Part shown: positions 18,350-36,989 of the stretch, in pieces
How positions within the stretch are numbered: the first letter of the stretch is position 1
Layout of the letters: every line of letters begins with the position of its first letter
Assembly (NCBI RefSeq): GCF_030012215.1
Contig: NZ_JASCXX010000028.1
Location: 1 to 64,000 of the forward strand
Direction of reading: 5' to 3'
Length of the DNA: 64,000 nucleotides
Source: Anaerobaca lacustris
GTDB lineage: Bacteria; Planctomycetota; Phycisphaerae; Sedimentisphaerales; Anaerobacaceae
Translations under genes and position numbers: made by a program
The notes under the pieces: model-generated
Told to the model about the DNA's origin: nothing
Seen by the model: the letters and a program-made list of their open reading frames with translations, nothing else
The model's database searches: none

Positions 18350-19792
18350 ATGCGACAAGGAGCTTTTCGCTCGCTACCGACCTACTGCATGCCATTGCTT
18401 GTGGCGGTCGTCTTCCTGGGACCGGACCGTGCCCCGGCCGGCGACGGACGCATCCGGCCCTATGAGGCCAATCCGCGGTATTGGCAATACAAGGGCCGTC
18501 CGATCCTGCTGCTCGGGGGAAGCAAGGACGACAATCTGTTCCAGATCCCCGATCTCAAGGAGCACCTCGACGAAATGGTCTCGGTGGGCGCCAACACCAT
18601 CCGCAACACGATGAGCGACCGGCCGGACTTCGGCTTCGAGGTGCGTGCGTTTCATCAGCGGCCCGACGGGAAATTCGACCTCGACCGATGGAACGACGAG
18701 TATTGGCGGCGGCTCGAGAACATGCTCCGATGGACCGCCGAGCGGGACATCATCGTACAGATCGAGCTCTGGGACATGCACGACATGCTCTTGCCCGACT
18801 ATTGGGCGGCGAATCCCTGGAATCCCGATCGGAATACCAACTACACCTTCGAGAACACGCGCCTGCCGCGCCAACCGTCCCAGACCGCGTATCGCGGCAG
18901 CGAATCGGTCGGTCGACCGCACGAGTTCTTCCACTCCGTCCCCGCCGTCAACAACGACACGGTGCTCCTCGGTTTCCAGCGGCAGTTCGTCGATCGCGTG
19001 CTCGAACACACGCTGCGATACGACCACGTCCTCTACTGCATCAGCAACGAGATCCATACCGAGTACTCACCCGAATGGGGATGGTACTGGGCCCGTCATC
19101 TGCGGCAACGAGCGACCGAGGCGGGAAAGCAAGTCGAGGTCACGGAGATGTACTGGGCCCCGCAGTTGAACCATCGGGCGCACCGCGATTCTCTCGACCG
19201 GCCGGAAATCTACAGTTTCTTCGAGGCCTCACAGAACAGCGCCATCCTCGATCCGGAGGACAACTGGCAAAACCTCCTGTTCGCGTACCAGTATCTCCGC
19301 TCCCGTCCCCGTCCGATCAACAACACGAAGATCTACGGCGCCGACGGCGGATCGGTCTGGGCGGGCGGCACGCACAATGCTCAGGAGAAGTTCTGGCGGA
19401 ACATCTTCGGCGGGTCGGCTTCCAGTCGGTTCCACCGCCCTGCGACCGGCCTGGGGCTCAGCGAACCAGCCCGGGTCCACATCAAGAGCCTGCGGATGCT
19501 GGCCGACGCGATGAACGTCTTCGTCTGCGAGCCGCACAACGACCTGCTGAGCGAACGGTCGGCGAACGAGGCCTACTGCCTCGCCGAGCCGGGCCGGGAG
19601 TACGCCATCTATTTCCCCAATGGCGGGCAGGTGCGACTCGATGTCTCCGCCGCCCAAGGAATGATGCAAGTCCGCTGGCTGGACATCACTCGCAGCGCCT
19701 GGCAGCAGTCGCAAGCCGCCCGCGCCGGCGGGACCCTGGAATTGAAGACCCCCGCCACGGGGCACTGGGCGGTGCTGGTGTTGCGGAAATAG
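18350..19792 (+). CDS. Secreted TIM-barrel GH-A-like protein, paralogue 1
   Basis: This is the first of six related secreted proteins (480 residues) in the array. GGAGGCAGGACCC precedes the ATG, and the signal peptide ends near APAGDG. The mature start IRPYEANPRYWQYKG followed by ILLLGGSKDDNLFQ is the family signature. The core reads as a clan GH-A TIM barrel: HVLYCISNE puts an Asn-Glu pair (Glu234) where GH-A enzymes have the acid/base. A conserved FWRNIFGGSASSRFHRP block and a C-terminal beta-sandwich (YAIYFPNGGQVRLDV, VRWLDITRSAW) resemble those following DUF4038/apiosidase domains. The usual nucleophile position is occupied by INNTKIYG. Glycan hydrolysis is inferred from fold and context only. 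Confidence 0.7.
   Translation: MRQGAFRSLPTYCMPLLVAVVFLGPDRAPAGDGRIRPYEANPRYWQYKGRPILLLGGSKDDNLFQIPDLKEHLDEMVSVGANTIRNTMSDRPDFGFEVRAFHQRPDGKFDLDRWNDEYWRRLENMLRWTAERDIIVQIELWDMHDMLLPDYWAANPWNPDRNTNYTFENTRLPRQPSQTAYRGSESVGRPHEFFHSVPAVNNDTVLLGFQRQFVDRVLEHTLRYDHVLYCISNEIHTEYSPEWGWYWARHLRQRATEAGKQVEVTEMYWAPQLNHRAHRDSLDRPEIYSFFEASQNSAILDPEDNWQNLLFAYQYLRSRPRPINNTKIYGADGGSVWAGGTHNAQEKFWRNIFGGSASSRFHRPATGLGLSEPARVHIKSLRMLADAMNVFVCEPHNDLLSERSANEAYCLAEPGREYAIYFPNGGQVRLDVSAAQGMMQVRWLDITRSAWQQSQAARAGGTLELKTPATGHWAVLVLRK
19505..19594 (+). repeat. 90-bp exact repeat, copy in paralogue 1
   Basis: This segment of paralogue 1 is identical at all 90 positions, including third codon positions, to bases 22498-22587 of paralogue 3. 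The flanks on both sides diverge at once. The encoded residues include VFVCEPHNDLLSERSANEA. Confidence 0.9.
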
Positions 19793-19870
19793 CGACCCAC
19801 CTCGCAGGCGTCTGTTCTATCTGTGAACGCTGTGTAATGTACCATGAACCCTGAAGAAGGAGTCCTGCAG

Positions 19871-21343
19871 ATGACAGGAAAACGCCAAAGGATACATTCG
19901 GCACGTAGAGCCATCTTGCTGGCGGTTACAGCACTCTTGGCAGCCGGTCCGGTATGGGCCGACAATGCAGATCGTATCCGACCCTACGAGGCCAATCCGC
20001 GCTACTGGCAGTACAAGGGCAAACCCGTGCTGCTACTCGGTGGCTCAGACGACGACAACCTGTTCCAATGGGAGCGATCCAAGCTGGAGGCCCACCTCGA
20101 TCTGCTGGTTTCCGTCGGCGGCAACTATGTCCGCAACACCATGAGCGATCGGGACGAAGGAAACGTCTATCCTTTCGCCCGCGTCAGGGATCGCTACGAC
20201 TTGAGCGTCTGGAGTGAGGAATACTGGAATCGGCTCGACATCTTTTTGCGCGAAACGCAGGAGCGCGAGATCGTCGTCCAGGTCGAGCTTTGGGATGCGT
20301 TCGATTGGACGGACGACTACGGCTGGGGCAACCATCCGTGGAATCCTGCGAACAACGTGAATTACACGGCGGAGCAATCAGGCTTGCCGACGTCCTGGCC
20401 GCATTCGCCACATCGGCGCGACCATCCGTTTGTGCTGACGATTCCGGGCCAGGCGAACGCCGATCGCGGCCGTGTCGTGCTCTCATTGCAGGAGAATTTC
20501 GCCGCCAGAGTTCTGGACGCCTGCCTGGTCTACAACCATGTGCTGTTCACTATCCACAATGAGACCAGCGCCCCACATCCGTGGTCGGATTACTGGGCGA
20601 CGTTTCTCCATGCCCGAGCAACAGCAAACGGCAAGAGCGTGTACGTCAGCGACATGCGGGAAGAGGACATCGGCAACCGCGATCCACATGAATACGTGAT
20701 TGGCCGGCCGCATCTGTACAACTTCTTGGAAGTCTCGAAAACAAACCGCAGCCACAAGCAGGCGCATTGGGATTGCATCCTGCTCGTGCGGTCGCGTCTG
20801 GAGCAGAGCGGCTTCATCCGCCCGATGAACAACACGAAGATTATGTACGGTCCGCCGTTCCGCACGCGCACGGACGCGGAGAAAATGGAACTGGTGGATA
20901 AGTTCTGGCGCAACGTCCTCGGCGGCACAGCGGCGGCGCGGTTCCATCGCGAATTCAACGGCCTCGGCCTGAATGATCTGGCTCAGGTGCAAATCCGCAG
21001 CGTGCGCATCTTCACCGACGCGTGGAACGTCTTCGTATGCGAGCCGCGCAACGCCCTCCTTTCCGAACGCGCGGAAAACGAAGCCTACTGCATGGCCCAG
21101 CCGGGCAGGCAGTACGCCGTCTACTTCCCGGACGGCGGTGCGGTACGGCTCGACGTGTCGGCGGCGGAGAGCCCGCTGCAAGTGCGCTGGTTCGACATCG
21201 CGCAGAGCACGTGGCAGTCGCCGCGGACCGCCGACGGCGGCAAGTCGATTGAACTGAAGGCGCCCGGCGAAGGCCCCTGGGCGGCGCTGATCGTAACCCA
21301 ACACGAATTGGACCTCAACCCCAAGGAGATCAGGAAATGTTAG
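19871..21343 (+). CDS. Secreted TIM-barrel GH-A-like protein, paralogue 2
   Basis: This second paralogue has 490 residues. I start at ATG 19871, where AAGGAG lies 9 bases upstream; an ATG at 19844 has no such site. The signal peptide ends at VWADNA and is followed by DRIRPYEANPRYWQYKG and VLLLGGSDDDNLFQ. HVLFTIHNE contains the putative acid/base Glu231. LYNFLEVSKTNR and MNNTKIMYG correspond to conserved strands 6 and 7. FWRNVLGGTAAARFHRE and the C-terminal sandwich (YAVYFPDGGAVRLDVSAAE, QVRWFDIAQSTWQ) are as in paralogue 1. It has a longer insertion between strands 7 and 8 (RTRTDAEKMELVDK) than paralogue 1. Its stop overlaps the next start by seven bases, so the two are translationally coupled. 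Confidence 0.7.
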   Translation: MTGKRQRIHSARRAILLAVTALLAAGPVWADNADRIRPYEANPRYWQYKGKPVLLLGGSDDDNLFQWERSKLEAHLDLLVSVGGNYVRNTMSDRDEGNVYPFARVRDRYDLSVWSEEYWNRLDIFLRETQEREIVVQVELWDAFDWTDDYGWGNHPWNPANNVNYTAEQSGLPTSWPHSPHRRDHPFVLTIPGQANADRGRVVLSLQENFAARVLDACLVYNHVLFTIHNETSAPHPWSDYWATFLHARATANGKSVYVSDMREEDIGNRDPHEYVIGRPHLYNFLEVSKTNRSHKQAHWDCILLVRSRLEQSGFIRPMNNTKIMYGPPFRTRTDAEKMELVDKFWRNVLGGTAAARFHREFNGLGLNDLAQVQIRSVRIFTDAWNVFVCEPRNALLSERAENEAYCMAQPGRQYAVYFPDGGAVRLDVSAAESPLQVRWFDIAQSTWQSPRTADGGKSIELKAPGEGPWAALIVTQHELDLNPKEIRKC

Positions 21344-22788
21344 CACGACACAATCACACCCACCGCGTCAAGATCATCGTTGCCCTGGCGGTGGCGATGG
21401 CCTGGCAAAACGGCGTCGCGCACGCTGACAACGCCGACCGGATTCAGCCGTGGTCGGAGAATCCGGCCTACTGGCAGTACAAGGGCCAACCGGTCCTGCT
21501 CATCGGCGGGTCGGACCAGGACAATTTATTCAACCACCCGAACATCGGGCCGGACGGGCTGGAGGCCCACCTGGATCTGCTGGTCTCGGTCGGTGGCAAC
21601 TACGTGCGTAACACGATGAGCCATCGCGATTCGGGGAATGTCTTCCCGTTCTACCGTGACCCGGATACAGGGCTGTTCGACTTGGACTGCTTCCATGATG
21701 CTTATTGGAAGCGGCTTGACGCGTTGCTGGCGCTTGCCAAGGACCGGGACATCATTGTGCAGATCGAATTGTGGGATCCGCACGACTACTACCAGGACGG
21801 CGGCGACCACGGCGGGTGGTCGCGCAATCCCTTCAACCCGGCCAACAACGTCAACTATACCGTCGAAGAATCGGGCCTTATCGAAACGGTTGACTGGTCC
21901 GCTGTTCACGATCCCGGGAAGGATCATCCCTTCTTCCAGACGGCGCCGTCCGAGCGGGACCTGATTCTTGTTCGGCGCTATCAGGAACGATTCGTCGACA
22001 AGGTGCTCGAAGTCGCCTTCCCATATCCGAATGTGCTTTACTGCGTGAGCAACGAATCGAACGATTCCCTCCACTGGAGCGACTACTGGGCCGCGCACCT
22101 TCGCCGCCGGTCGGAGGAGGCGGGCTATCCGATCCAGGTCGGTGAGATGCGTTTTCCGAACAATCCCCGCCACGGCGATTTTCAGCACGTCATCGAACGA
22201 CCCGAACTCTATGCGTTCCTTGACGTCGGCCAACTCAACCGCCCCGTACAGCAGCGACACTGGGACAACCTTCAGTACCTTCGCGGACGCCTGGCCGAGC
22301 GGCCCCGCCCGATCAACAACACAAAGATCTACGGTGGTGACGCGGTGGGGTGGACGGGGGGGTATCGAACCGGAGAGGAGTGTTTCTGGCGGAACGTCCT
22401 CGGCGGCGCCGCGTCGGCCCGGTTCCATCGTCCGCCTGCGGGGCGGGGTCTGAGCGTCGAGGCGCAGGCCCATATTCGCAGCGCACGGATGCTCACTGAC
22501 GCGATGAACGTCTTCGTCTGCGAGCCGCACAACGACCTGCTGAGCGAACGGTCGGCGAACGAGGCCTACTGCCTCGCCGAGCCGGGCAGGCAGTACGCGG
22601 TCTACTTTCCCGACGGCGGCGCGGTGAAGCTGGATGTCTCGGCCGCACAGGGGGCGCTCGAGGTCCGCTGGCTCGACGTCGCCCGCAGCGCCTGGCAGCA
22701 GCCGCAGACGGTCACCGCCGGATCGACGCTGGAACTGAACGCCCCCAATAAGGGCCACTGGGCGGCACTGATCGCCAAGGGACAATGA
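21337..22788 (+). CDS. Secreted TIM-barrel GH-A-like protein, paralogue 3
   Basis: This third paralogue has 483 residues and starts inside the end of paralogue 2, with AAGGAG upstream of its ATG. The signal peptide ends at GVAHADNA; DRIQPWSENPAYWQYKGQP and VLLIGGSDQDNLF follow. NVLYCVSNE carries the putative acid/base Glu240, and LYAFLDVGQLNR has Asp where paralogues 1, 2, 4 and 5 have Glu. The C-terminal region shares a 90-bp exact DNA stretch with paralogue 1, a sign of gene conversion. Domain order is signal peptide, TIM barrel, beta-sandwich. It is followed by the DUF4832 protein after 35 bases. The substrate is unknown. Confidence 0.7.
   Translation: MLARHNHTHRVKIIVALAVAMAWQNGVAHADNADRIQPWSENPAYWQYKGQPVLLIGGSDQDNLFNHPNIGPDGLEAHLDLLVSVGGNYVRNTMSHRDSGNVFPFYRDPDTGLFDLDCFHDAYWKRLDALLALAKDRDIIVQIELWDPHDYYQDGGDHGGWSRNPFNPANNVNYTVEESGLIETVDWSAVHDPGKDHPFFQTAPSERDLILVRRYQERFVDKVLEVAFPYPNVLYCVSNESNDSLHWSDYWAAHLRRRSEEAGYPIQVGEMRFPNNPRHGDFQHVIERPELYAFLDVGQLNRPVQQRHWDNLQYLRGRLAERPRPINNTKIYGGDAVGWTGGYRTGEECFWRNVLGGAASARFHRPPAGRGLSVEAQAHIRSARMLTDAMNVFVCEPHNDLLSERSANEAYCLAEPGRQYAVYFPDGGAVKLDVSAAQGALEVRWLDVARSAWQQPQTVTAGSTLELNAPNKGHWAALIAKGQ
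22498..22587 (+). repeat. 90-bp exact repeat, copy in paralogue 3
   Basis: This is the second copy of the exact 90-bp repeat described at 19505-19594. It lies at the equivalent position of paralogue 3, in the same reading frame. The surrounding codons differ clearly between the two genes. Confidence 0.9.
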
Positions 22789-22823
22789 CCGCTCGTACCG
22801 ACGTTCTGTCACGGAAGGATGCC

Positions 22824-24356: not shown

Positions 24357-24381
24357 AACACCCTTTACGGAGGCAGTAACC

Positions 24382-25842
24382 ATGCGACAAAGGACCTTCC
24401 CATCACATCCGACCGCCTGCATATCCCTTCTTGCGGCGGTTGTCCTCCTGGGGCCGGCGTTGGCCTCGTCGAACAACGAACGCATCCACCCGTACGAGAA
24501 CAACCCCCGCTACTGGCAGTACAAGGGCCGACCCGTGCTGCTGCTGGGCGGGTCGCGCGAGGACAATCTGTTCAACCACCCCGATGGCCTGGCCGAGCAC
24601 CTGGATACGCTGGTTGCCAGCGGGGGCAACTACATCCGCAACACGATGAGCAGCCGCAACCCCGGCAATCCCTGGGCGTTCAAACGCCTCGACAACGGTC
24701 TGTACGACCTGAACCAGTGGGACACCGAATATTGGGGCCGCTTCGAGAACCTGCTGAAGCTGTGCAAAGAGCGCAACATCATCGTGCAGATCGAGGTATG
24801 GGACCCGTGGGACTACTTCAAAACCGAAGCGCCGCTGGGCTATGGCCCGAACAACGTCGGCTGGGAGAGCTGTCCGTTCAATCCCGCCCTCAACGTCAAC
24901 TATACCGCCGCCGAGAGCGGGCTGGCCGAGAAGATCGACTACTACTCGGGCAGCAAGCCGAGCGGCCACCTGTTCTTCCATACCCCGCCGGCCCTGAAAG
25001 ACGCCCCGCTGGTGCGTAAATACCAGGAGGCCTTCGTGGACAAGCTGCTCTCGATCTCGCTGGCGTATCCCAACGTGCTGTACTGCATGAACAACGAGAT
25101 CGGCGAGCCGCCCGAGTGGGGCCAGTACTGGGCGAAGTTCATTCGGACGCGGGCCGAGAAGGCGGGCAAGAAGGTGTTCCTCACCGACATGCGTCGCAAC
25201 ACCAGTTTCGAGTCCGCCGAGCAGGTGAACCTGCTGCACGACCGCACGCATTACGATTTCTTCGAAATCTCGCAGAACAACGCCAACAACGACCAGAAGC
25301 ACTACGATCATATCCTGCACATCCGCTCGCAAGTCGCGTCCCGTCCCATTCCGATCAACAACGTCAAGATCTACGGCGGCGAGATCGGAAGCTGGACGAC
25401 CAGCGTGGAAGAAGGCACGCGTCGATTCTGGCGCAACGTCTTCGGCGGCTGCGCCTCGTCGCGCTTCCATCGGCCCGGGCCGTCGCCCGACTATTTCGCC
25501 ATCGGCCTGAGCGATCTGGCCCAGACGCACATCCGCAGCATGAGGATGCTGACGGAGGCGATGGACGTCTTTTCCTGCGAGCCGCACAACGAACTGCTCG
25601 GCGACCGGTTGCCGAACGAGGCCTACTGTCTGGCCCAGCCCGGCAAGCAGTGCGCCGTCTATTTCCCCGATGGCGGCGAGGTAACGCTCGATGTCTCCGC
25701 TGCGCGGGGAACGCTCCAGGTCCGCTGGCTCGATATCCGCCGCAGCGCCTGGGGGCAGTCGCAGACCGTCCCCACCACCGGGACCCTGGAGTTGAAGACC
25801 CCGGAAAAGGGTCAGTGGGCGGCGCTTGTGTTGGTCCAATAG
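24382..25842 (+). CDS. Secreted TIM-barrel GH-A-like protein, paralogue 4
   Basis: This fourth paralogue has 486 residues. Its ribosome-binding site and leader (GGAGGCAGTAACC, then MRQRTFPSHP) are visibly homologous to those of paralogue 1, so the duplication carried the translation signals along. ERIHPYENNPRYWQYKG and VLLLGGSREDNLF open the mature protein. NVLYCMNNE places the putative acid/base at Glu239. HYDFFEISQNNA and INNVKIYGGE follow, then FWRNVFGGCASSRFHRP and the C-terminal sandwich (VRWLDIRRSAWGQSQ). It probably acts outside the cytoplasm on the same class of glycan as its neighbours, which is inference from context. Confidence 0.7.
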   Translation: MRQRTFPSHPTACISLLAAVVLLGPALASSNNERIHPYENNPRYWQYKGRPVLLLGGSREDNLFNHPDGLAEHLDTLVASGGNYIRNTMSSRNPGNPWAFKRLDNGLYDLNQWDTEYWGRFENLLKLCKERNIIVQIEVWDPWDYFKTEAPLGYGPNNVGWESCPFNPALNVNYTAAESGLAEKIDYYSGSKPSGHLFFHTPPALKDAPLVRKYQEAFVDKLLSISLAYPNVLYCMNNEIGEPPEWGQYWAKFIRTRAEKAGKKVFLTDMRRNTSFESAEQVNLLHDRTHYDFFEISQNNANNDQKHYDHILHIRSQVASRPIPINNVKIYGGEIGSWTTSVEEGTRRFWRNVFGGCASSRFHRPGPSPDYFAIGLSDLAQTHIRSMRMLTEAMDVFSCEPHNELLGDRLPNEAYCLAQPGKQCAVYFPDGGEVTLDVSAARGTLQVRWLDIRRSAWGQSQTVPTTGTLELKTPEKGQWAALVLVQ

Positions 25843-25873
25843 ATACTATCACTTGGCGAAAGGAGATCGAAGG

Positions 25874-27349
25874 ATGCTCGCATCACACCGACGTATGTGG
25901 CGAAATGAGATGATGGCGGTGCTGGTCCTGGGTGCGTTCTGGGCAATCGCTCCCGTTTGGGCCGGAGACGGCGGCGGCATCCGGCCGTACAGCGGGAACC
26001 CCTCTTACTGGCAATACAAGGGCAAGCCCATCATGCTCGTCGGCGCCAGCGACAAAGACAACCTCTGGCAGTGGACGGGGACGCAATTGACCGAACACCT
26101 CGACCTCATGCAGTCGGTGGGCGGAAACTATGTGCGCAACACCATGTCCGACCGCAATGAAGGGGATCTCTTCGCGGCAAAACAACGGGACGACGGCCGG
26201 TACGACCTCGACCAGTGGAACGATGCCTATTGGGAGCGGCTGCGCTTCTTCCTCGACGAGACACACAAGCGCGAGATCATCGTTCAACTGACGTTGTGGG
26301 ACTGGTTCGATCTTTCCGGAGCCGGCGTATACGGGCGTTTCGCCGTCCATCCCTTGAATCCCGACAATAACATCAATTGGGAACCCGGCACGATCAAGAA
26401 CGCCGGCGATTTCTATGGCGGTTCGCTTCGGCACAAGAACCAGCCGGTGCTGGACTACCAGCATCGATACATCGACACGCTGATGTCCATGGCGCTGCGA
26501 TACGATCATGTGTTGTACAACATCAACAACGAGAGCAGTCTGGGGGCGGAATGGGAGAACTACTGGGCGACCTATATCAAGGCCGCCGCCGAACGAGCCG
26601 GCAAGGAGATCCATGTCACGAGCATGCAGTTCGCGCCCGGGACTTCAGTTCGGCACGTCATGACCTACCGTGACATTTATTCGTTCGCCGAGGTGTCGCA
26701 GAACAATCAGGACGCTTTGGGCCCGGTGGGCAAGAAGCACTGGGACAACCTTCTCTTCTGGCGGAAGATGATCGCCCGCAGCGACGAAGGCCCCATGCCG
26801 ATCAACAACGTCAAAGTCTATGGCCAGGGCGTCGGACTCAACACCGCCGCAGGCACCGAAAAGGAAGCGGTCGAGCGATTCTGGAGAAATATCTTCGGCG
26901 GCGCCGCCTCGACGCGGTTTCACCGTCCGGCCCTGCGCGACGGGGGGCAATGGGGATGGGGCATCGGCCTCTCCGAAAGAGCGCAGCACACCCTCCGTGC
27001 CGTGAACCTGTTCCTCGGTGAATTCGACGTTTTCAATGCAGAACCTTATGAAGCATTCTCAACCGTGGACAACTCGGTTGATTGCTATTGTATGGCGGAT
27101 CTCGGCAAAGCGTATGCCGTCTATTTCCCCGGCGGCAGGGCCACGGTCCATCTCGATCCATGGGTCTACGTGAAAAAGGTGTCCGTGCGCTGGTTCGATA
27201 TCGCCGCGTTGTCCTGGGGCCAAGAGCAAATCGTGGAGCCGCAGTGGGACCAGTACGATGGCACCTCCTGGTGGGGTCCCCAGCGGATCCTCACCCTGGC
27301 CCCGGCAAACCACCGCTCGTACATTGCCCTCGTACGAGCAATCGAGTAG
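25874..27349 (+). CDS. Secreted TIM-barrel GH-A-like protein, paralogue 5
   Basis: This fifth, more divergent paralogue has 491 residues. AAAGGAG lies before the ATG and the signal peptide ends at APVWAGD. GIRPYSGNPSYWQYKGKP and IMLVGASDKDNLWQW keep the family opening. HVLYNINNE gives Glu220 as putative acid/base, and IYSFAEVSQNNQ and INNVKVYG match strands 6 and 7. The C-terminal sandwich is altered (YAVYFPGGRATVHLDPWVYV) and carries extra residues before the end. The start lies 31 bases after paralogue 4, and a nucleoside-hydrolase-like gene follows after 29 bases, so the operon continues across the change of family. Confidence 0.7.
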   Translation: MLASHRRMWRNEMMAVLVLGAFWAIAPVWAGDGGGIRPYSGNPSYWQYKGKPIMLVGASDKDNLWQWTGTQLTEHLDLMQSVGGNYVRNTMSDRNEGDLFAAKQRDDGRYDLDQWNDAYWERLRFFLDETHKREIIVQLTLWDWFDLSGAGVYGRFAVHPLNPDNNINWEPGTIKNAGDFYGGSLRHKNQPVLDYQHRYIDTLMSMALRYDHVLYNINNESSLGAEWENYWATYIKAAAERAGKEIHVTSMQFAPGTSVRHVMTYRDIYSFAEVSQNNQDALGPVGKKHWDNLLFWRKMIARSDEGPMPINNVKVYGQGVGLNTAAGTEKEAVERFWRNIFGGAASTRFHRPALRDGGQWGWGIGLSERAQHTLRAVNLFLGEFDVFNAEPYEAFSTVDNSVDCYCMADLGKAYAVYFPGGRATVHLDPWVYVKKVSVRWFDIAALSWGQEQIVEPQWDQYDGTSWWGPQRILTLAPANHRSYIALVRAIE

Positions 27350-27378
27350 TGGACCCAGTTACAGAAAAGGAGCAAGAC

Positions 27379-28422
27379 ATGATGAGCACCCCAGTGCAAG
27401 CTCTGTACCTGGCAACACTCTGCCTGATTGTTGTCGGCGCCGCATCGTGCAGCCACTCGAGTTCCCGGAGAATTCGGGTGATCTTTGACACCGACGCCAA
27501 CAACGAGGTGGACGATCAGCACGCGATGGCGTACCTGCTGTTCAGCGGGGACACGTTCGACGTGGCGGGCGTGACCGTCAATGCGACCAGTGACCCGAAC
27601 GGCTTTCGGACTCCGTCGAACGTGCAGGACCATTACGATGAGGCCCGGCGAGTAATGCAGTTGTGCGGGCAGTTGTATGGACGCATCCCGTTGAAACTCG
27701 GCGCCCAGGGCGGATTCGAGGAGATCGCCCCCCACCTGGATCGGCCCGATTTCGACGGACACGAAGCAGTCGATTTCATCATCGAGCAGGCCGGCATGCA
27801 GCGAGACGGCGAGCTGATCCTCCTGGCCGTCGGGAAGCTGACCAACGTGGCGCTGGCCGTGGCGAAGGAACCGTCCATCGCGCGGAGCGTTCGCCTGTAC
27901 TGGCTCGGCGCCAATTACCCCGGCAAGGGAGAACACAACAAGGTCTGGGATATTCCGGCCATGAACTTCCTGCTGGACAGCGACATCCCCTTCGAAGTGG
28001 TGACGGTGCGTTATGGCGATCCTTCCGGCACAGACGCCGTCAAGGTGACGAAAGCCCAGATCCTGCACCGGATGCCGGGTAAGGGGCCGCGGATCTCCGA
28101 GCCGATCACCGGGCGGCACGGCGGCCGGTTCGACAACTGGGGCGACTACTCGGCCAACCTCTTCGAGATGTACCAGATGTACGGCAATCCCCCATCCCGC
28201 TCGCTGTTCGACATGGCCGCGGTCGCTGTTGTGAAGAATCCCGACTGGGCCGAGCGCCGCATGATCCCCACGCCGATCTACGATATCGAGAACGACAAGT
28301 GGATCGACCGGCCCGACAACCCGCGTCAAATCGCCCTGTGGGAGTGGTTCGACATCTACGGGATCATGAACGACTTCTTCGTTACCATGCGCCAGCCCGT
28401 ACTGGTCGAGCCATGCCGTTGA
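27379..28422 (+). CDS. Secreted nucleoside-hydrolase-fold protein
   Basis: This lipoprotein-like nucleoside-hydrolase homologue has 347 residues and an N-terminal signal ending near GAASCSH. AAAAGGAG precedes the ATG. The calcium-binding signature VIFDTDANNEVDDQHAMAYL corresponds to the DxDxxxDD motif of inosine-uridine nucleoside hydrolases. LLAVGKLTNVALAVAKEP and VRLYWLGANYPG match the second conserved half (VG..TN.A, then strand-Gly). Canonical enzymes cleave the N-glycosidic bond of ribonucleosides in the cytosol; here export and the glycan operon suggest another, glycoside-like substrate. It is a tandem duplicate of the N-terminal half of the next gene. Confidence 0.8.
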   Translation: MMSTPVQALYLATLCLIVVGAASCSHSSSRRIRVIFDTDANNEVDDQHAMAYLLFSGDTFDVAGVTVNATSDPNGFRTPSNVQDHYDEARRVMQLCGQLYGRIPLKLGAQGGFEEIAPHLDRPDFDGHEAVDFIIEQAGMQRDGELILLAVGKLTNVALAVAKEPSIARSVRLYWLGANYPGKGEHNKVWDIPAMNFLLDSDIPFEVVTVRYGDPSGTDAVKVTKAQILHRMPGKGPRISEPITGRHGGRFDNWGDYSANLFEMYQMYGNPPSRSLFDMAAVAVVKNPDWAERRMIPTPIYDIENDKWIDRPDNPRQIALWEWFDIYGIMNDFFVTMRQPVLVEPCR

Positions 28423-28486
28423 ACCCGTCACGAATGCGCCCCCGATTCATGCGGCGCAAAAACCATAGACATAGGAGCAATCCACA

Positions 28487-31060
28487 ATGAGAATCACATT
28501 GCAGCTTGTGTTCCTGGCGGCGCTCTGTTTGCTCGCTGTCAGCGGAATATCGTTGGGACAGTCGAATCCCGACAAGATTCGGGTGATCCTGGACACCGAC
28601 GCCAACAACGAGCTGGACGACCAGCACGCCATCGCCTATCTGCTGTTCAACGGCGACGTGTTCGACGTCGAGGCGATCACAGTGAACCGGACCCAGGGCG
28701 GCGGGGGCGTGGACCAGCACCTGGCCGAGGCCCAGCGTGTGGTCCGGCTGTGCGCTCTGGACTCGAAGATCCCCGTCCTGCGCGGCGCCGACAAGTCGTT
28801 CGAGGAGATCAAGGGCCAACTCAACCGGCCCGATTTCGACGGGGCCGAGGCAGTGAACTTCATTATCGAACGGGCCAAGGCCGCCGACGCGCGCCGGCTG
28901 GTGCTGCTGCCGGTGGGCAAGCTGACCAACATCGCCCTGGCGCTGGCAAAGGAGCCGTCCATCATTCCCAAGGTTCGCGTCGTATGGCTCGGCTCGAATT
29001 ATCCCGATCCCGGCGAGTACAACCAGGTCAACGATGAGCCGTCGCTGAACTACATCCTCGATACGGGTGTGGACTTCGAGATCGCCATCGTCCGCTACGG
29101 CAAGCCCTCGGGCACCGACGCCGTCCGGGCCACCCTGCCCGAAATACGCAGGATCATGCCCGGCAAAGGGCCGAAGATCGATCCGCCCGTGACGGGACGC
29201 CACGGCGGCGCGTTCACCAACTTCGGCGACTATGCGATCAACCTGTTCGGGAACATCCAGCTCTATGGCGATCCGCCGTCGCGGGCGCTGTTCGACATGG
29301 CCGCCGTGGCCATCGTGAAGAATCCCGCCTGGGCGAGAGCCGTCGAGATGCCCGCCCCGATCCTCAAGGACGGCCGCTGGGTGGACCGCCCGGACAACCC
29401 GCGTAACATCATCCTGTGGGAGGACTTCGACCGCGACGCGATCATGGCCGATTTCTACGACCGGATGACGAACTATCAACTCGCGCAACCCGGCCGGGCG
29501 GCGCAATGGGAGCCCGTGGAGTTGATGTTCATCGCCGACCGTGACTACGCCAACCCGTATACCGACGTCGATCTGCACGTGGAGTTCCGCGGGCCGGACA
29601 ACAGCGTGGTCCGGCGTCCCGCCTTCTGGGACGGCGGCCGCACTTGGCGCGTCCGCTTTGCGGCCCCGGAGCCCGGGACGTGGACGTGGCGCTCGGCGGC
29701 CTCGAACCGCGAAGACGCCGGCCTGCATGCCCAGAGCGGCCGGCTCCACGTGACCGCCTACAGCGGCGACAATCAACTGCTGCGCCACGGCCTGCTCTGC
29801 ATGTCGCCCGGCCGGCGCAACGTGGTACACGCCGACGGAACGCCCCTCCTCGTGGTCGCCGACACCCCCTGGGGACTGCCGTTTCGTGGCACGGTCGAAT
29901 CGGTGACCGCTTACGCACAGAACCGCCAGGCCAGAGGCTTCAACGCCGCCCTGCTGATGAGCGTACAGCCCGACCGGCGCGCCGAAGGCCCTCGCGACCG
30001 GAACGCCGTCGGCGGCTTCGGCATCGGGTTCCACGATCTGTCCGAGGGACGCCTCAACAAGCCCAACGTCGAGTACTTCCAGCATCTCGACACACTGATC
30101 TCGATCCTTATCGATCATGGCATCGTGCCGGTCTACAACCCCGTCTTCCAGGGCTTCGGCTGGAAGGGCCTTGGCACGATCGGTCGCACGGCCGAGCCCA
30201 AGGAATACGCGCGCTACACTCGCTATCTCATCGCCCGCTACGGCGCGTGTCCTGCCATGTGGCTGCTCAGCGCCGACGGGACGGGCAAGGAGCCCGTCAC
30301 CGAACCGGCCGGCCTGGAGGTGCAGGCGTGGGACGCCTACGGCCAGCCGACGGGCATTCACTACAGTCCCTTCTGCGACCGCAAGCCCGACTGGACGGAC
30401 GACCCCCAATTCGGCTTCCACCAGAATCGGTCGTATCATGACGCCGAGTGGCTGGACTTCCAGTGGTGCCAGACCGGCCACGGCGGCGAGCACCTGCCGT
30501 ACAAGGTCCGTCGGATGCACGACTACGAACCCACCAAGGCCGTCGCCAACGGCGAACCCACCTACGAGCGGATTGGCCGGCAAGACAGGGCCGTCGGCTG
30601 GTGGCAGGGCCACGAGGCTTGGCTGAACCTCACCGCCGGCGGCACGATGGGTGTCGTCTACGGCGCCGGGGGTCTGTGGAACTGGAAGGTCGCCCCCGAC
30701 GAGCCGGGCTGGCCCAACTGGGCCAACACGCAGGCTTCCTGGGCCGACGCCATCGAGTTCGAGGGCAGCCGGTACGTCGGCTACGTCGGCCGGGCACTGG
30801 CCGGCTACAACATCGCCGACATGACCGTGCTGCCGGACGTCAGTCCGCAGGCCGTCGGCAAGCCGGGCGAGCTGTATATCGTCTATCTGCCCGAGGGCGG
30901 CTCCGTGACGCTGGCCGGCCTGAAGGGCGACCTGCCCTGCCGCTGGTTCAACCCGCGCCGCGGCCAATTCGCGGGCAAAGGCCGTGTGAACCCAAGGTCA
31001 CCGTCCCTGACCGCCCCATCGGAGGATTCCTGGGTCCTGTTGGCGGGTAGGCAGAGATAG
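28487..31060 (+). CDS. Nucleoside hydrolase-DUF5060-DUF4038 fusion protein, secreted
   Basis: This three-domain exported protein has 857 residues. After a signal peptide (SGISLGQ), residues about 28-335 form a nucleoside-hydrolase domain with VILDTDANNELDDQHAIAYL and LLPVGKLTNIALALAKEP, close to the preceding gene. Residues about 338-440 (WEPVELMFIADRDYANPYTD, TWRVRFAAPEPGTWTW) are a DUF5060 beta-sandwich. Residues about 445-760 are a DUF4038/apiosidase-like GH-A barrel (LLVVADTPWGLPF, MWLLSADG, GEPTYERIG), closed by a small sandwich (GELYIVYLPEGGSVTLAGL). Both catalytic modules look intact. I know of no characterised protein with this order. GGAGCAA lies before the ATG. Confidence 0.8.
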   Translation: MRITLQLVFLAALCLLAVSGISLGQSNPDKIRVILDTDANNELDDQHAIAYLLFNGDVFDVEAITVNRTQGGGGVDQHLAEAQRVVRLCALDSKIPVLRGADKSFEEIKGQLNRPDFDGAEAVNFIIERAKAADARRLVLLPVGKLTNIALALAKEPSIIPKVRVVWLGSNYPDPGEYNQVNDEPSLNYILDTGVDFEIAIVRYGKPSGTDAVRATLPEIRRIMPGKGPKIDPPVTGRHGGAFTNFGDYAINLFGNIQLYGDPPSRALFDMAAVAIVKNPAWARAVEMPAPILKDGRWVDRPDNPRNIILWEDFDRDAIMADFYDRMTNYQLAQPGRAAQWEPVELMFIADRDYANPYTDVDLHVEFRGPDNSVVRRPAFWDGGRTWRVRFAAPEPGTWTWRSAASNREDAGLHAQSGRLHVTAYSGDNQLLRHGLLCMSPGRRNVVHADGTPLLVVADTPWGLPFRGTVESVTAYAQNRQARGFNAALLMSVQPDRRAEGPRDRNAVGGFGIGFHDLSEGRLNKPNVEYFQHLDTLISILIDHGIVPVYNPVFQGFGWKGLGTIGRTAEPKEYARYTRYLIARYGACPAMWLLSADGTGKEPVTEPAGLEVQAWDAYGQPTGIHYSPFCDRKPDWTDDPQFGFHQNRSYHDAEWLDFQWCQTGHGGEHLPYKVRRMHDYEPTKAVANGEPTYERIGRQDRAVGWWQGHEAWLNLTAGGTMGVVYGAGGLWNWKVAPDEPGWPNWANTQASWADAIEFEGSRYVGYVGRALAGYNIADMTVLPDVSPQAVGKPGELYIVYLPEGGSVTLAGLKGDLPCRWFNPRRGQFAGKGRVNPRSPSLTAPSEDSWVLLAGRQR

Positions 31061-31130
31061 GTGTCGGCAGGGATCACAGGATCAACAGATTGAATCAAGG
31101 TGCTGCAACGATTCAGAGAAGGAGTCACCA

Positions 31131-32498
31131 ATGAAGGACAGGGGCTCCACCCTAACCGTCATCAGTCTGACGGTCTTTGGCGTGCTGGGGTGTACCGTTG
31201 CCGGAGAGGCGGCAAGCCCCCGGAATTACCTTGAGCGTTCGCCCAACGGCCGCTACCTGCAATGGCAAGACGGTACGCCGTTCTACATCCATGCGGATAC
31301 GGCGTGGGCGCTGCCGCGCGACTATTCGCGCGACGAGGTCATTGGGTATCTGGACAAGACGGTTGAGCAGAAATTCAGCGCCGTCCAGATGAGCGCCGTA
31401 TTTCACGCTGTCCGACCCAATCAGGACCTTATGGGCCCAGCGTTCCACGAAGGCGATTTTCTGCGTCCCAAGGAGAACTACTGGGCGAATGTGGATTGGG
31501 TCGTCGAACAAACCACCCGGCGCGGATTGGTTGCGATCCTCAATCCCATCTGGAAGAAACAACTGGCCGCGGCCATTGGCGACAACGGTCCGGAGAAAAG
31601 TCGTGCCTACGGCCGATGGTTTGCCGGGCGGTACAACGACAACCCGCGTGTCATCTACTTCCTGGGCGGCGATGCAGTGCCCGATCCCGTGCGGAAGGAG
31701 ATCATAGCCATGGGTGAGGGCGTTCAGGACGTCTACGAGGGCAGGGCGATCGTCGCCTACCACAGCGCTTCCGACACGACCAGTTTCGACGCCTTTGGCG
31801 ACAGGCCCTCCTGGCTCACACTCAACTGGACGTATTCGTACTGTCCCCGCTACCGGAAAACGTATCCTTACGAGCAGCACTGGAGAACCTTCAAGGAGCA
31901 TCCTCCCATGCCCTTTCAGTTTGGCGAGGGGTACTACGATTTCGGCGCCGCCAGGGACTATGGCATCCATCACGTCAACACTCGCTTCGGCGACCGCTAT
32001 GCCGTCCGGCGTCAGGCGTGGTGGGCCAGCTTCGTGACGGGCAGCGCCGGCCATGCGTACGGCGCCGAAGCCATTTGGCACCACAATCGTGAAGGCGAAA
32101 CATGGCGGGCAGCCCTCCAATATCCGAGCCGTCAGGACATGATGCGTAAGAAGAACCTTCTCGACCAGATTCCGTGGTGGACTCTGAGGCCGGACATGGA
32201 GAACGTAGTCCTGGTCGGTGGTTACGGAACATGGCGAACGGATGAGTTCGCGGTGGCGGCGGTCTCCGAGGACAGGAAACTCGCCGTGGTTTATACCCCG
32301 GTCCGCCATGCGCTGCAGCTCGACTTGGGCGGGTTGGCGACCGGGAGGATTGAGGCACGATGGTTCGATCCGACCAGCGGGGCGTCTTCTTCCCCCAATG
32401 GCTGGAACGTCGGAAGCCAGGGTTTGGTTACAGTTCAATCACCCGAGAAGAACAGCGCTGGTGACGCGGACCATGTATTGGTTCTAACCGTTCAATGA
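31131..32498 (+). CDS. Secreted DUF4038 (apiosidase-like, GH140-type) glycosidase
   Basis: This DUF4038 protein has 455 residues, a signal sequence with a possible lipobox (FGVLGC) and AAGGAG before the ATG. YLQWQDGTPFYIHADTAWAL is the classic opening of this barrel family. NPRVIYFLGGDAV gives the acid/base strand (LGGD), and PFQFGEGYYDFG carries a Glu at the nucleophile strand. The WWASFVTGSAGHAYGAEAIW block and a C-terminal sandwich (LAVVYTPVRHALQLDLGGL, ARWFDPTSG) complete the architecture. GH140 apiosidases release D-apiose from rhamnogalacturonan II side chains; whether this one does so is unknown. It sits 70 bases behind the fusion protein. Confidence 0.8.
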   Translation: MKDRGSTLTVISLTVFGVLGCTVAGEAASPRNYLERSPNGRYLQWQDGTPFYIHADTAWALPRDYSRDEVIGYLDKTVEQKFSAVQMSAVFHAVRPNQDLMGPAFHEGDFLRPKENYWANVDWVVEQTTRRGLVAILNPIWKKQLAAAIGDNGPEKSRAYGRWFAGRYNDNPRVIYFLGGDAVPDPVRKEIIAMGEGVQDVYEGRAIVAYHSASDTTSFDAFGDRPSWLTLNWTYSYCPRYRKTYPYEQHWRTFKEHPPMPFQFGEGYYDFGAARDYGIHHVNTRFGDRYAVRRQAWWASFVTGSAGHAYGAEAIWHHNREGETWRAALQYPSRQDMMRKKNLLDQIPWWTLRPDMENVVLVGGYGTWRTDEFAVAAVSEDRKLAVVYTPVRHALQLDLGGLATGRIEARWFDPTSGASSSPNGWNVGSQGLVTVQSPEKNSAGDADHVLVLTVQ

Positions 32499-32565
32499 AC
32501 GCCTGAATGCGACACCCGCACCACGATTGACAAGAAGGCTCCATATAGAAGCAAAGAGATTGGTG

Positions 32566-33741
32566 ATGCTCAACTCGACAGCGAACGGCCTGCTTCAACG
32601 CATTGCGCTGCTGTGCCTGGTCGCTCTGCCAGCTTCTGTGCCGGCGGCCACCTGGCGGGCCAGGACCGACGACTGGTCGGGGAATCCCCGCCCAATCATC
32701 GGGGACTGGGGGTTTGACCGGCCCGGATATCCGAAGGGACTCTATCTCCACGGCGTCACCATGCCCGAGGGGTATTTTCCCGCCAATCCGCTGCCGAATC
32801 CGATCATCTATGACAATGATGAGTACGCGGATATCCTCGACGACGACGTGCTCTGCGCGATGGCCAGCCTCGGAAGGATCACACTGGCCGCCCAAGTCGT
32901 TACCCCCATTGATCCCAAGGGGGTGTTCAAGGAGCGTTGGCAGCGGTCGGCCTTCTGGCACCATGACCGTTGCCTGCGATCGGGGATGTGTATGAAGCGG
33001 ATTCCCAAGCCCATCGTTGGCAACACGCGGGCGGAGCCCGATCCGGATTCGCCCGGCGTCAAAGCGTACGTCGAGATGATCCTGTCCTGGTACAGAGCCC
33101 ATCCCGACAAGCCGGTCCTGATCGCGATGGGCGGCCAATCGGCCACGCTGGCCTCGGCGTACAAGCGAGACCCCGCCATCGCGGACAAGGTCATCGTCTT
33201 CTACGTCTCGGCCAACGCCTACAACGGGCACCTGGCCTGGGCCAGCGAGCTGGTCTGTCAGAACATGCGGGTCGTACACGCCTACCACTACTGGTGGCCG
33301 GAAGTGGGCGTGCCCAACGAGCTTCGGGCGCTGCCGCGTAACGACTCGGCCGACTGGAACCACATCAGCGGCGAATGGGCGGTCCTCGACAACCTTAAGG
33401 ATGTTCTGGGTCGCGACGCCCTGCCGTTCATCGACGATCCGTACCGGGACAAGTTCAACTGCGGCGGCCTCCTGGAACGGCTCAAACGCAACAACCAATA
33501 CAACAGCGGCCACCACCACAAGGGCTGGGGCGACGATGCCTACTCGGACGGCAACATCTTCGTCGCCTGGGAGCCTTCCGTGTACCGAAACGCGATCCTC
33601 CGAACGGTTCGCGGCGGGTGGGTGATCGACCACGAATACAACCTGGACTGGCTGAATCGGCGTGCAATTCACGCGGCCTCGTATCCCTTTCTCAGCAACC
33701 CCGACGCGTACCGGAACTGTGGGTGCTGCCCCGAACCGTGA
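32566..33741 (+). CDS. Divergent nucleoside-hydrolase-like secreted protein
   Basis: This protein has 391 residues and a signal peptide ending near SVPAATW. I start at ATG 32566, since the longer TTG-initiated frame has no better ribosome site. Residues about 80-100 (PIIYDNDEYADILDDDVLCA) keep a DxD plus Asp-Asp arrangement like the nucleoside-hydrolase calcium site, with an insertion. VLIAMGGQSATLASAYKRDP, then KVIVFYVSANAYNG, matches the second conserved half. The C-terminal third (YNSGHHHKGWGDDAYSDGN) has no counterpart I recognise, and the last residues are Cys-rich (NCGCCPEP). It is the third nucleoside-hydrolase-fold protein in this operon. The function is unknown. Confidence 0.6.
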   Translation: MLNSTANGLLQRIALLCLVALPASVPAATWRARTDDWSGNPRPIIGDWGFDRPGYPKGLYLHGVTMPEGYFPANPLPNPIIYDNDEYADILDDDVLCAMASLGRITLAAQVVTPIDPKGVFKERWQRSAFWHHDRCLRSGMCMKRIPKPIVGNTRAEPDPDSPGVKAYVEMILSWYRAHPDKPVLIAMGGQSATLASAYKRDPAIADKVIVFYVSANAYNGHLAWASELVCQNMRVVHAYHYWWPEVGVPNELRALPRNDSADWNHISGEWAVLDNLKDVLGRDALPFIDDPYRDKFNCGGLLERLKRNNQYNSGHHHKGWGDDAYSDGNIFVAWEPSVYRNAILRTVRGGWVIDHEYNLDWLNRRAIHAASYPFLSNPDAYRNCGCCPEP

Positions 33742-33782
33742 GGCAACGCGCGCTGTGAATGGCTGCCCGCAACACGCAAGGA

Positions 33783-33880
33783 GACACCTATCGCACCCGA
33801 CCCTATACGGAAAATCGCGGCTAATGGCGGTACAAGGACAACCTTTGCTACTTCTCAGCCCAATGACAAGGAAAACTCTG
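33783..33880 (+). pseudogene. Decayed N-terminus of a seventh GH-A-like paralogue
   Basis: Read in the frame starting at 33783, this stretch gives DTYRTRPYTENRG, a TAA stop at 33822, then WRYK. After a one-base frameshift near 33836 it continues GQPLLLLSPMTRKTLED. This lines up with the family opening (D/N-x-x-R-I-R-P-Y-x-x-N-P-R-Y-W-Q-Y-K-G-K/Q-P-V-L-L-L). The match covers about 30 codons and lacks both the signal peptide and the rest of the gene. It ends where the ribosome-binding site of the next gene begins, so it looks like the remnant left by deletion of a paralogue. Confidence 0.6.
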
Positions 33881-33889
33881 GAGGATGCT

Positions 33890-35434
33890 ATGCTGCAACA
33901 TACACAGCCTGTAACCGGCAGCACCGCGATGACGCGTCGGACGTTTCTATCTCAGGGAGCAGCCACCGTCGGCGCGGGCATGGGCCTGTTGGCCGGCGGA
34001 CTCGCCCCCGGCGCGCGAGCGCAATCGCGCGCCGCAACGAGACTGCTCTACAACGACGCGGAGATTGAGATCTATCGTTCGCGAATGGCGGGCGCCGGTC
34101 CCTTCCACACAAGGGGTGACGCCGGCCACGGCGGGCCGTGGTCTCCCAACGATGGCGAGCGGTCCGGACAGTTGGCAGCCGAGTTCCTGGACAATCCCCG
34201 GGAATCGTACTGGAGCCAGCCGGACCTGCCGTATTCGGCCGGCGATCCCTCTCCCCCGCACAGCACGCAGTACGCGCGTCCGATGCACGCCGCGTGGATC
34301 TGCATGACGCAGCCGGACCATCCGAAACGCGATGCGTTGTTCCAGCAGGTCAAAGCGTTTCTCCTGGCCCACGCGGCCGATCCCACCCTGGACTTCGGCA
34401 ACGACACCAATTATACCGACGACTACCCCGGCTTCGTTCCGGGTCCGATCTTTGCATTTGCCGAATGGATGACCCGCGTCATCAAGGCCCGCGACATGCT
34501 CGGACGCGATGCATTCAACGCCGAAGAAGACGCGAGATTCGACCACTGGCTCCACGACTACGCCAATTGGTCCTTCCTGTGGCTGCACAACGAGACCTAT
34601 GGCAAGCACGTTCCCGGCCGACTGGATCGAGACTATTCCCGAATCGGCGCCTCGTTCCGGACGCCGGCCGACGGCTTTCGACACAGTTACGACGGCGGGC
34701 CGGGGATCGGGTTTGCCGCGATGGCCTACTCCAATCGCCATTCCACCGTGATGGCTGGGGCCAGCCTGGCGGCGAACTACATCCGGTGCTTTAACTTCCG
34801 GGCCCCTGTCTCGGGCGGGCCGAGGTACGGGCTTCTGTCTGTGGACCAGCTCGTCGACCACAGCCGGCTGTTCGTCGAGGAAGTGCTGCGGTTCAGCGTG
34901 CATCCGCAAGGGTTGCAGGGTGATTTCCAGCGGGGGGACGGCAACCGCCATACGAACGTGTCTGCTCAGCAGGGCTGGCTCTATTCGGTCAATGTGCTGA
35001 TGGGTCTGATGGAGATCGCGCTCTACCATGCCCGGCGCGGCGACATGAGCGTGTGGCAGTACGGCACCACCGAGGGGCATGAGGGCACGGAAGGGTCTCC
35101 CGACCAGGCGCTGGGAGTCGACGGATTTCCCAGGAAGAACCTCCACTTCTACGCATGGGCGATGAGCCGATATGTGAACGACGAATGGAACCGCAGGAAC
35201 CGTGGTGAGCCCTTGGCGCTGGACCGGTTCTACCACGACGTCATCCCGGCGGCCATCGCGCACAGACTGGCGCCGCACGACGGCCTGCTGGACGCGGCGT
35301 GGAAACGCCAGGGCCGCAGCTTCCCGCCCTATCCGCAACGCCCGCAGAGCCAGGGGCCGTGGAACGCACTCTTCGGCCAGGGCGGAAAATACATCGGCCT
35401 CATCGAACACGCAGGCCTGCCCCCAATCATCTGA
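33890..35434 (+). CDS. Tat-exported protein of unknown function
   Basis: I do not recognise the family with certainty. The 514-residue protein opens with a twin-arginine signal (MTRRTFLSQGAATVGAGMG) and an Ala cleavage site (GARAQS). CTGGAGGAT precedes the ATG at 33890. The mature part is largely helical, with repeated aromatic-rich helices such as FDHWLHDYANWSFLWLHNE, QGDFQRGDGNRHTNVSAQQG and FYAWAMSRYVNDEWNRR. That could fit an (alpha/alpha) toroid as in polysaccharide lyases, which is only a guess. It lies between the decayed paralogue and paralogue 6, so a role in the same glycan pathway is likely. Confidence 0.65.
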   Translation: MLQHTQPVTGSTAMTRRTFLSQGAATVGAGMGLLAGGLAPGARAQSRAATRLLYNDAEIEIYRSRMAGAGPFHTRGDAGHGGPWSPNDGERSGQLAAEFLDNPRESYWSQPDLPYSAGDPSPPHSTQYARPMHAAWICMTQPDHPKRDALFQQVKAFLLAHAADPTLDFGNDTNYTDDYPGFVPGPIFAFAEWMTRVIKARDMLGRDAFNAEEDARFDHWLHDYANWSFLWLHNETYGKHVPGRLDRDYSRIGASFRTPADGFRHSYDGGPGIGFAAMAYSNRHSTVMAGASLAANYIRCFNFRAPVSGGPRYGLLSVDQLVDHSRLFVEEVLRFSVHPQGLQGDFQRGDGNRHTNVSAQQGWLYSVNVLMGLMEIALYHARRGDMSVWQYGTTEGHEGTEGSPDQALGVDGFPRKNLHFYAWAMSRYVNDEWNRRNRGEPLALDRFYHDVIPAAIAHRLAPHDGLLDAAWKRQGRSFPPYPQRPQSQGPWNALFGQGGKYIGLIEHAGLPPII

Positions 35435-35447
35435 AGGAGATGCAGAC

Positions 35448-36989
35448 ATGTTGAAGAGAAAACACCGAATGAGCCGCCTCCGCACGGTCGCTGCATTGAC
35501 ACTGGTGGCGTTCTGGGCCGGCAGCGTGACGCAGGCTGAGAACGTCGGTCGTATTCGGCCGTGGCCGGAGAACCCGCATTACTTAGCGTGGGGCGATACG
35601 CCCGTCTTTCCGTTGGGCGCGACCGGGTACCATAGCTGGACCCCCATCAGCCGGCCCGCGACGGTCGATTTCGAAGAGCAGTTGGACCGCCTCGCCGCCG
35701 TGATTGCCGAGATCGGCAGTCCGCACGTCTGCGGGTTCGTGCGATGCCTTCCTTACGATCCGATGAACCACATGCACGACGGGACCGTCAAAGAGGTGTT
35801 GCAGCCGTGGGCCAAGCTCGCCGATGGGCGATACGATCTGGAGCGGTTTGAGCCGGCGTGGGACAAGCGGCTGCGGGCCTTCCTGACGACGGCACTTCGC
35901 CATCGGATCGTCGTCTCTCTGGAGGTTTGGGACGACTGGTCCGTCACACGGGGACCGGGCGGGGCCTACGATCCCGGCGCGGGGGCCGCGTGGAACGCAC
36001 ATCCGTTCAACCCTCGCAACAACGTCAACTACGACGAAGACGTGCTACCTTCTACAACCAGCGTTTGCGACGCTTCCTTCTACAGCACGATCCCTTCCCG
36101 CCGCAGTATCAAGCCGGTCCTCGACCTGCAGAAACGCTATGTGGACCACCTGCTCGCCATCGCCTCGGAGTACCCCCACATCCTGATCAGCATCGCCAAC
36201 GAAAGCCGGGCCCATCTGGAGTGGAGCCGGTTCTGGGCCGAGTACGTCCGGCAGCGGGTCCCTTCGGGCATGATGATCGGCGAGATGCCCTCGACCAATC
36301 GCAAGGACGGGGGCGGCGAATGCGAGCACGATTTCAGCCCGCTGATCCTGTGCACCGATCGACGGTACGACTACGTGGACATCGCCCAAGGCGTCTCCGG
36401 ACACGAGTTCCGCAGTCCCCGCGAGCAGGCCCTGGGCGGCGGCGGGCGAATTCTCGAATACCGCCGGGCCATGGCCGAGGCAGGAACCCAGCGTCCACTG
36501 ATCGTCTCGAAGGACTACACGCGCGGCCCGGACGGCGGCGACATGGTGTTGTGGGGCCGGTTCGTCGGCGGCGCCGCAACGGCACGGTTTCACCGCCCGG
36601 CGGGCAATCACCCCGCGTCCATCAGCCAGTTTCAGCACGAGGCCGTCGGTCGTCTGGGACATTTCATCGCCCAGGTGCCGTTCTGGCGGATGCACCCAGA
36701 GCCGGGTCTTGTGAGCGAACTCCCCTCCGGGGCCGGGGCCAACGTCCTGGCCGAACCCAACGGCCACTGCGTGGTGCAGTTGATCGGCGAGACCAGCGGC
36801 GACAAGCTGCGCCTGGCTCTTCCATCCGGTACGTGGGCGGTCCGATGGATCGACCCGGCGACCGGCCGTGCGCTGGCCCGCTCCGAGACGACCGCAGACA
36901 CGACGGGTATGCAACTGGACGTCCCCGCCGGGTCCGACCACCGGATCGTACACCTCAGCAGAGCGTCGCAGCGATCGGAAAAGCCATAG
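35448..36989 (+). CDS. Secreted TIM-barrel GH-A-like protein, paralogue 6 (divergent)
   Basis: This most divergent paralogue has 513 residues, AAGGAGATG before its ATG and a signal peptide ending at GSVTQAEN. GRIRPWPENPHYLAWGDTP and VFPLGATGYHSW keep the family opening but lack the DDNLF motif, resembling DUF4038 openings instead. HILISIANE gives Glu252 as putative acid/base, and RYDYVDIAQGVSG and PLIVSKDYTRG occupy strands 6 and 7. The block WGRFVGGAATARFHRP is conserved, and the C-terminal sandwich (DKLRLALPSGTWAVRWIDPA) is shortened. It may link the paralogue family to DUF4038. It starts 13 bases after the Tat-exported protein and is the last gene of the array. Confidence 0.7.
   Translation: MLKRKHRMSRLRTVAALTLVAFWAGSVTQAENVGRIRPWPENPHYLAWGDTPVFPLGATGYHSWTPISRPATVDFEEQLDRLAAVIAEIGSPHVCGFVRCLPYDPMNHMHDGTVKEVLQPWAKLADGRYDLERFEPAWDKRLRAFLTTALRHRIVVSLEVWDDWSVTRGPGGAYDPGAGAAWNAHPFNPRNNVNYDEDVLPSTTSVCDASFYSTIPSRRSIKPVLDLQKRYVDHLLAIASEYPHILISIANESRAHLEWSRFWAEYVRQRVPSGMMIGEMPSTNRKDGGGECEHDFSPLILCTDRRYDYVDIAQGVSGHEFRSPREQALGGGGRILEYRRAMAEAGTQRPLIVSKDYTRGPDGGDMVLWGRFVGGAATARFHRPAGNHPASISQFQHEAVGRLGHFIAQVPFWRMHPEPGLVSELPSGAGANVLAEPNGHCVVQLIGETSGDKLRLALPSGTWAVRWIDPATGRALARSETTADTTGMQLDVPAGSDHRIVHLSRASQRSEKP

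Follow-up and report, generated by a model that had tools for sequence, protein, structure and literature searches.

The window analysed here is a 64,000-nt stretch of Anaerobaca lacustris (contig NZ_JASCXX010000028.1, positions 1 to 64,000 of the forward strand). It contains an array of six paralogous genes, GHa to GHf, whose products are exported glycoside-hydrolase-like proteins. The paralogues and the two further genes of importance for this analysis are as follows:

18350..19792, + strand: family paralogue GHa
19844..21343, + strand: family paralogue GHb, the best DNA match of the relic described below (46 of 68 nt)
21337..22788, + strand: family paralogue GHc
24379..25842, + strand: family paralogue GHd
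25904..27349, + strand: family paralogue GHe
32566..33741, + strand: g7, encoding an exported protein with a sub-threshold nucleoside-hydrolase match
33890..35434, + strand: downstream exported gene (514 aa) with a twin-arginine-like leader
35448..36989, + strand: family paralogue GHf, divergent, with an orthologue in genome G005 that is 81-82% identical

Weak Pfam matches connect the family to DUF6298 (PF19815), and one of its proteins also weakly matches Collagen_bind_2 (PF12904). No solved structure matched the family alignment at E 0.01, and a literature search, at the level of search results, returned nothing on this array. The paralogues share the N-terminal motif R I R P Y x x N P R Y W Q Y K G x P V L L L G G. 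In five of them, the mature start reads I-R/Q/H-P-Y/W-x-x-N-P-x-Y-W-Q-Y-K-G-x-P-V/I-L/M-L-L/I/V-G, while GHf is divergent.

The spacer between g7 and the downstream exported gene (33742-33889) spans 148 bases and is, as the initial annotation had stated, the largest between genes from 18350 to 36989; a space of 184 nt directly precedes the first paralogue and lies outside this gene series. The spacer carries a degraded copy of the family motif, with the following features:

33778..33783, + strand: AAGGAG, Shine-Dalgarno-like, read from the sequence
33790..33856, + strand: relic that retains about 22 codons of the family N-terminal motif; a TAA lies in frame and the reading frame shifts by one base
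33822..33824, + strand: TAA stop in the conserved Tyr column of the motif
33836..33842, + strand: stretch with one base missing relative to the paralogues (frameshift)

Read from 33792, the relic translates as R T R P Y T E N R G stop W R Y K and, after the one-base shift, as (G) Q P L L L L, with the last codon ending at 33856. Both lesions had been proposed beforehand and were borne out: the TAA sits in the column of the conserved Tyr, and the frameshift, originally placed at 33836, corresponds to a base missing relative to the paralogues, whose exact place within 33836-33842 depends on the alignment. The match had been described as about 30 codons at 33783-33880; the resemblance to the motif was confirmed, but its extent had to be reduced to the 22 or so codons that are recognisable. 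The shortness of this segment (only about 65 nt) is a point against reading it as a relic.

Neither end of a family gene is present. No signal peptide precedes the motif, as 53 nt separate the stop of g7 (33741) from the codon at 33795, and a further in-frame stop lies upstream of the motif (33756-33758). The AAGGAG may possibly represent the putative ribosome site of the lost gene itself. Behind the relic, tblastn with the six paralogues revealed no family piece beyond background in 33857-35447, where the roughly 430 or more residues of the enzyme body and the C-terminal domain would be expected; the best match between 33856 and 35447 was a 10-residue antisense hit (E 0.037), followed by one at E 0.26. 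The downstream exported gene starts 34 nt past the last recognisable relic codon and has its own Shine-Dalgarno-like sequence (GGAGG, 33880-33884; start 33890). The relic, with its reading frame broken by stop and base loss and with both ends of the gene gone, is most likely a doubly truncated, decayed pseudogene. It shares with the array family the N-terminal motif RPYxxNPxYWxYKGxPxLLL at the protein and DNA level, but lacks signal peptide, barrel, and C-terminal domain, and is not a gene. Given one assembly, the TAA or the frameshift could be an assembly error, which could hardly apply to the missing enzyme body.

Similarity to the paralogues was quantified with our own profile scan, which tolerates frameshifts and stops and was applied to the window and other selected loci. 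With a profile of 22 motif sequences from these loci, the six paralogues scored 67-87 on the + strand of the window and the relic 33.3, which places it seventh of all + strand places, straight after the paralogues. The next places scored 20.3 and 17.3, and the best score on the − strand was 16.7. The score of 20.3 fell on the N-terminus of an apiosidase-like protein (31271), which might be a genuine distant relative. With a profile of 16 motifs, all from outside the window, the relic reached 33.5 bits; across three profiles with frameshift allowed it reached 31.8 to 33.5 bits, whereas the best place in the window outside the family came to about 20. None of 20,000 shuffles attained the relic score with the 22-motif profile. 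With the 16-motif profile, none of 150,000 dinucleotide shuffles of the gap reached 33.5 (shuffle maximum 27.7), and Gumbel extrapolation gave p ~1.5e-7. The relic exceeded all 3000 shuffles in each of 12 penalty settings, with a small margin in the harshest (22.6 vs. 21.3). Among 42 other loci, some overlapping and together comprising 577,568 strand-bases, nothing scored between 25.8 and 48.4. Scores from 48.4 upwards read as family motifs; the scores next below were 25.8, from a single place represented twice whose motif is related and lies at a contig end, and 20.8.

A repeat finder independently grouped 33790-33841 with five paralogue N-termini, and aligned the relic without a gap to the paralogue N-terminus at 19971 (75% DNA identity over 52 nt). 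The proposed DNA-level alignment thus revealed similarity to the paralogues, with 46 matching nucleotides out of 68 for GHb and 44 for three others, and the relic is too short to tell which paralogue was its source. Standard searches without a change of frame find the relic weakly or not at all. When the paralogues were searched against 33742-35447 with tblastn, five of the six placed their N-terminal motifs on or around 33792-33836; the best E-value against this local 1.7-kb stretch was a weak 0.02, which counts against the relic reading. Searching the gap by blastn against 12 loci and the window yielded no paralogue motif at E up to 10, and a 25-position motif profile without frameshifts did not list the relic at E 0.1.

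Comparison of the same locus in other genomes had been suggested as a check. At E 0.001, the downstream protein (33890-35431) found no relative among 60 relatives or 391 genomes of the phylum (partly the same as the 60), a pattern scan of genome contigs matched 21 stretches containing no relative, and no Pfam family was found up to E 0.5. Because this protein lacked relatives in the searched genomes, g7 was used as the locus marker. In the family search, g7 had matches in seven of 89 genomes, the present one included. In the scan of genome contigs, 28 pattern matches contained one relative, located on JACZKQ010000180.1 of the Phycisphaerae bacterium MAG49, which was compared with this genome at this locus. 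The g7 orthologue of MAG49 is intact (80% amino acid identity; 80.5% DNA identity over 1070 nt). An intact family gene begins 66 nt behind it; this gene encodes 465 aa, is 60.5% identical to GHa, and is followed by a second family gene. The intact gene that had been sought in related genomes is therefore present in MAG49 behind the orthologue of g7. From the g7 stop to the motif codon equivalent to 33795, the distance is 132 nt in MAG49 versus 53 nt in the window.

A similar neighbourhood was found in G104, which belongs to another genus of the same family. Here, two g7 pieces (88% over 17 aa and 81% over 36 aa) are split by a short insert and followed by a family gene without internal stop. 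The insert within this g7 relative (L029, G104:C237, 1622-1850) has inverted ends (TAGGGTGTGCTGTGCACACC type), and an upstream frame in L029, nucleoside-hydrolase-like by eye, runs into the first g7 piece. The pair of g7 and family gene is hence whole in MAG49, whereas g7 is broken in G104 and the family gene in the window. The relic matches the intact gene behind g7 at 36 of 62 nt in MAG49 and 41 of 62 nt in G104, compared to 46 of 68 nt for GHb of the window. As the MAG49 and G104 genes are not its nearest matches, orthology rests on position.

In G005, a member of the same genus, the roughly 15.7 kb between the first and the last paralogue, relic included, are absent from the corresponding place, and the orthologues of GHa (69%) and GHf (82%) are joined in one 986-aa frame. 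In this open frame (L071:8836-11796), the part orthologous to GHf has no signal peptide of its own. G005 was rejected as a test of the locus and, since the whole segment is absent there, it does not test the relic claim either way.

The main rival to loss in place is that g7 was imported, by recombination or transfer, together with only the first part of the family gene found behind it elsewhere; the stub would then be the ragged end of an imported block, never a full gene in this lineage, and would have decayed later. That the g7-containing segment of about 15.7 kb is missing at the equivalent position in G005 is consistent with such an import, as is the distribution of g7, which is 80% identical in MAG49 while the other five genus members contain no match better than E 4.5e-16. 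The lack of relatives of the downstream gene, in the 60 relatives and the 391 phylum genomes at E 0.001, would likewise be expected for foreign DNA. However, the 986-aa frame of G005, with its GHf portion devoid of a signal peptide, looks as much like a deletion in G005 as like an insertion here, and GC and GC3 of the segment genes match those of GHa and GHf. We regard an import of this kind as rather unlikely, and loss of a formerly complete copy in place as the simplest reading.

The relic had been described as a seventh paralogue, which holds for this array but not for the genome, in which six further near-full members lie on other contigs. The genome thus contains 12 near-full family members, half of them in the window; among the other six, the one on C45 was matched over positions 1-401 of 486 only. 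Furthermore, we found three more partial copies, on C50, C33, and C63. The C33 copy (L039:7163-7600) is a middle piece comprising residues ~258-395. The C63 copy (L040:671-1150) covers residues ~168-281 and 431-486, without the N-terminal part and an inner stretch. The C50 copy (L030:4791-6329) is a chimera that joins the family signal peptide and N-terminal motif in frame with the leader of a PKD and nucleoside-hydrolase protein. The C50 stub (GQPVLLL) and the relic (GQPLLLL) end within a few codons of each other. In both cases, the family N-terminus is preserved up to about the same codon, the body is gone, and another exported gene comes next; the C50 stub, however, retains its signal peptide in an open-frame fusion, whereas a stop and a frameshift interrupt the relic in the window.

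On C50 (L030, G000:C50; 2634-15991), related 5' ends, consisting of a ribosome site and a Tat- or Sec-like leader, precede consecutive exported genes. Identity to the reference copy amounted to 62-75% for six 5' ends over 159 nt, 60-77% for seven over 83 nt, and 61-86% for seven over 44 nt. The genes belong to several families (six proteins were scanned for Pfam), including nucleoside-hydrolase-like proteins with and without PKD, an FAD oxidoreductase, a sulfatase, and large proteins that could not be assigned convincingly to a Pfam family. Some genes duplicate one another, and some leaders lack the twin arginine.

Since related leaders on C50 precede genes of more than one family, an exchange of 5' ends is conceivable. 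Applied to the window, the family leader and first strand would have recombined in front of another exported gene and then decayed, i.e., a failed leader swap without a full gene ever standing here. The near-coincident end points of the C50 chimera and the relic would agree with such an exchange, as would the reading frame that the downstream gene shares with the second half of the relic. A shared frame is, however, expected by chance in one of three cases, the relic lacks a signal peptide, the downstream gene has its own leader and ribosome-site-like sequence, and MAG49 has a whole gene at this place. With two cases, too few to claim an exchange for the window, we consider this origin of the relic highly improbable. 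A broader version assumes that in such degradation arrays, which are probably planctomycete, 5' ends (ribosome site, leader, and first strand) are swapped between unrelated exported genes by recombination at Leu-rich codons, and that the relic and the C50 chimera reflect one recurrent process rather than independent losses; this appears quite improbable as well.

Possible signs of decay were also seen in the substitutions and the nucleotide composition. For the codon positions, 11 members were chosen from 44, namely the window paralogues other than the divergent GHf (five) and six further members whose motifs are close. At codon positions 1, 2, and 3, the relic differed from them at 5.9, 6.4, and 12.7 sites on average, and the members from one another at 3.4, 3.4, and 9.4. 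At 2.5, 3.0, and 3.3, the resulting excess differs little between the codon positions, over 62-69 nt only. GC content of the relic was 51.6%, versus 59-64% for the same segment in five paralogues and 48-55% in eight other measured gaps. The nearly even excess, the GC content, the missing signal peptide and body, and the downstream gene's own start and ribosome-site-like sequence all fit a doubly truncated, decayed gene.

A functional element that would regulate the downstream gene, either a short open reading frame acting as a leader (33759-33821) or a conserved RNA structure, could be suspected from the ATG at 33759, which opens a 21-codon frame ending at the relic TAA. Yet the spacer folds worse than its shuffles (z +2.19; 199 of 200 fold at least as well), a simple consensus scan found no promoter-like or terminator-like site in 33600-34000, and the substitution excess is nearly even over codon positions. 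Leader peptide and RNA element were rejected on these scans, and we assign them a negligible probability. Chance resemblance, which the shortness of the stretch, the need for a stop and a frameshift in the match, and the lack of significance in plain blastn, tblastn, and profile searches might suggest, is very unlikely, indeed almost inconceivable, and was rejected at the level tested by the shuffles and the scan of other loci, where nothing comparable was found outside the family; the independent repeat grouping and the adjacency in other genomes argue against it as well.

We thus consider it likely that the relic is the remains of a further array copy of the glycoside-hydrolase-like exported protein, which once stood directly behind g7. 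A full copy would have occupied this place, as an intact one still does in MAG49. Two deletions would then have taken the segment for the signal peptide and almost the entire enzyme body, and the leftover stretch would have gathered the stop, the one-base loss, and ordinary substitutions. The comparisons directly reveal the homology, both lesions, what is missing from the gene, and an intact counterpart beside the same neighbour in another genome; we infer the order of events and the loss at this place in this lineage. The relic would code for nothing and has no visible function.

The view that the array has lost as well as gained copies is supported by these data: of the two results named beforehand as contrary to it, an absence of DNA-level similarity beyond chance and related genomes with the same spacer and no gene, neither turned up. 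This array of secreted enzymes hence turns over by loss as well as by duplication, and the partial copies on C50, C33, and C63 likewise speak for turnover of the family in this genome. Truncated and frameshifted bacterial pseudogenes, or gene remnants, are a known kind of element in intergenic spacers, and the relic represents a new example of this well-known kind, reflecting ordinary bacterial gene loss as expected in multi-copy gene families. Like other bacterial pseudogenes, it has an in-frame stop, a one-base indel, and a large truncation, its GC content drifts to the level of the spacers, and intact homologues exist in its own genome and elsewhere. It differs from them in nothing of kind, being very short and located inside an array of its own paralogues.
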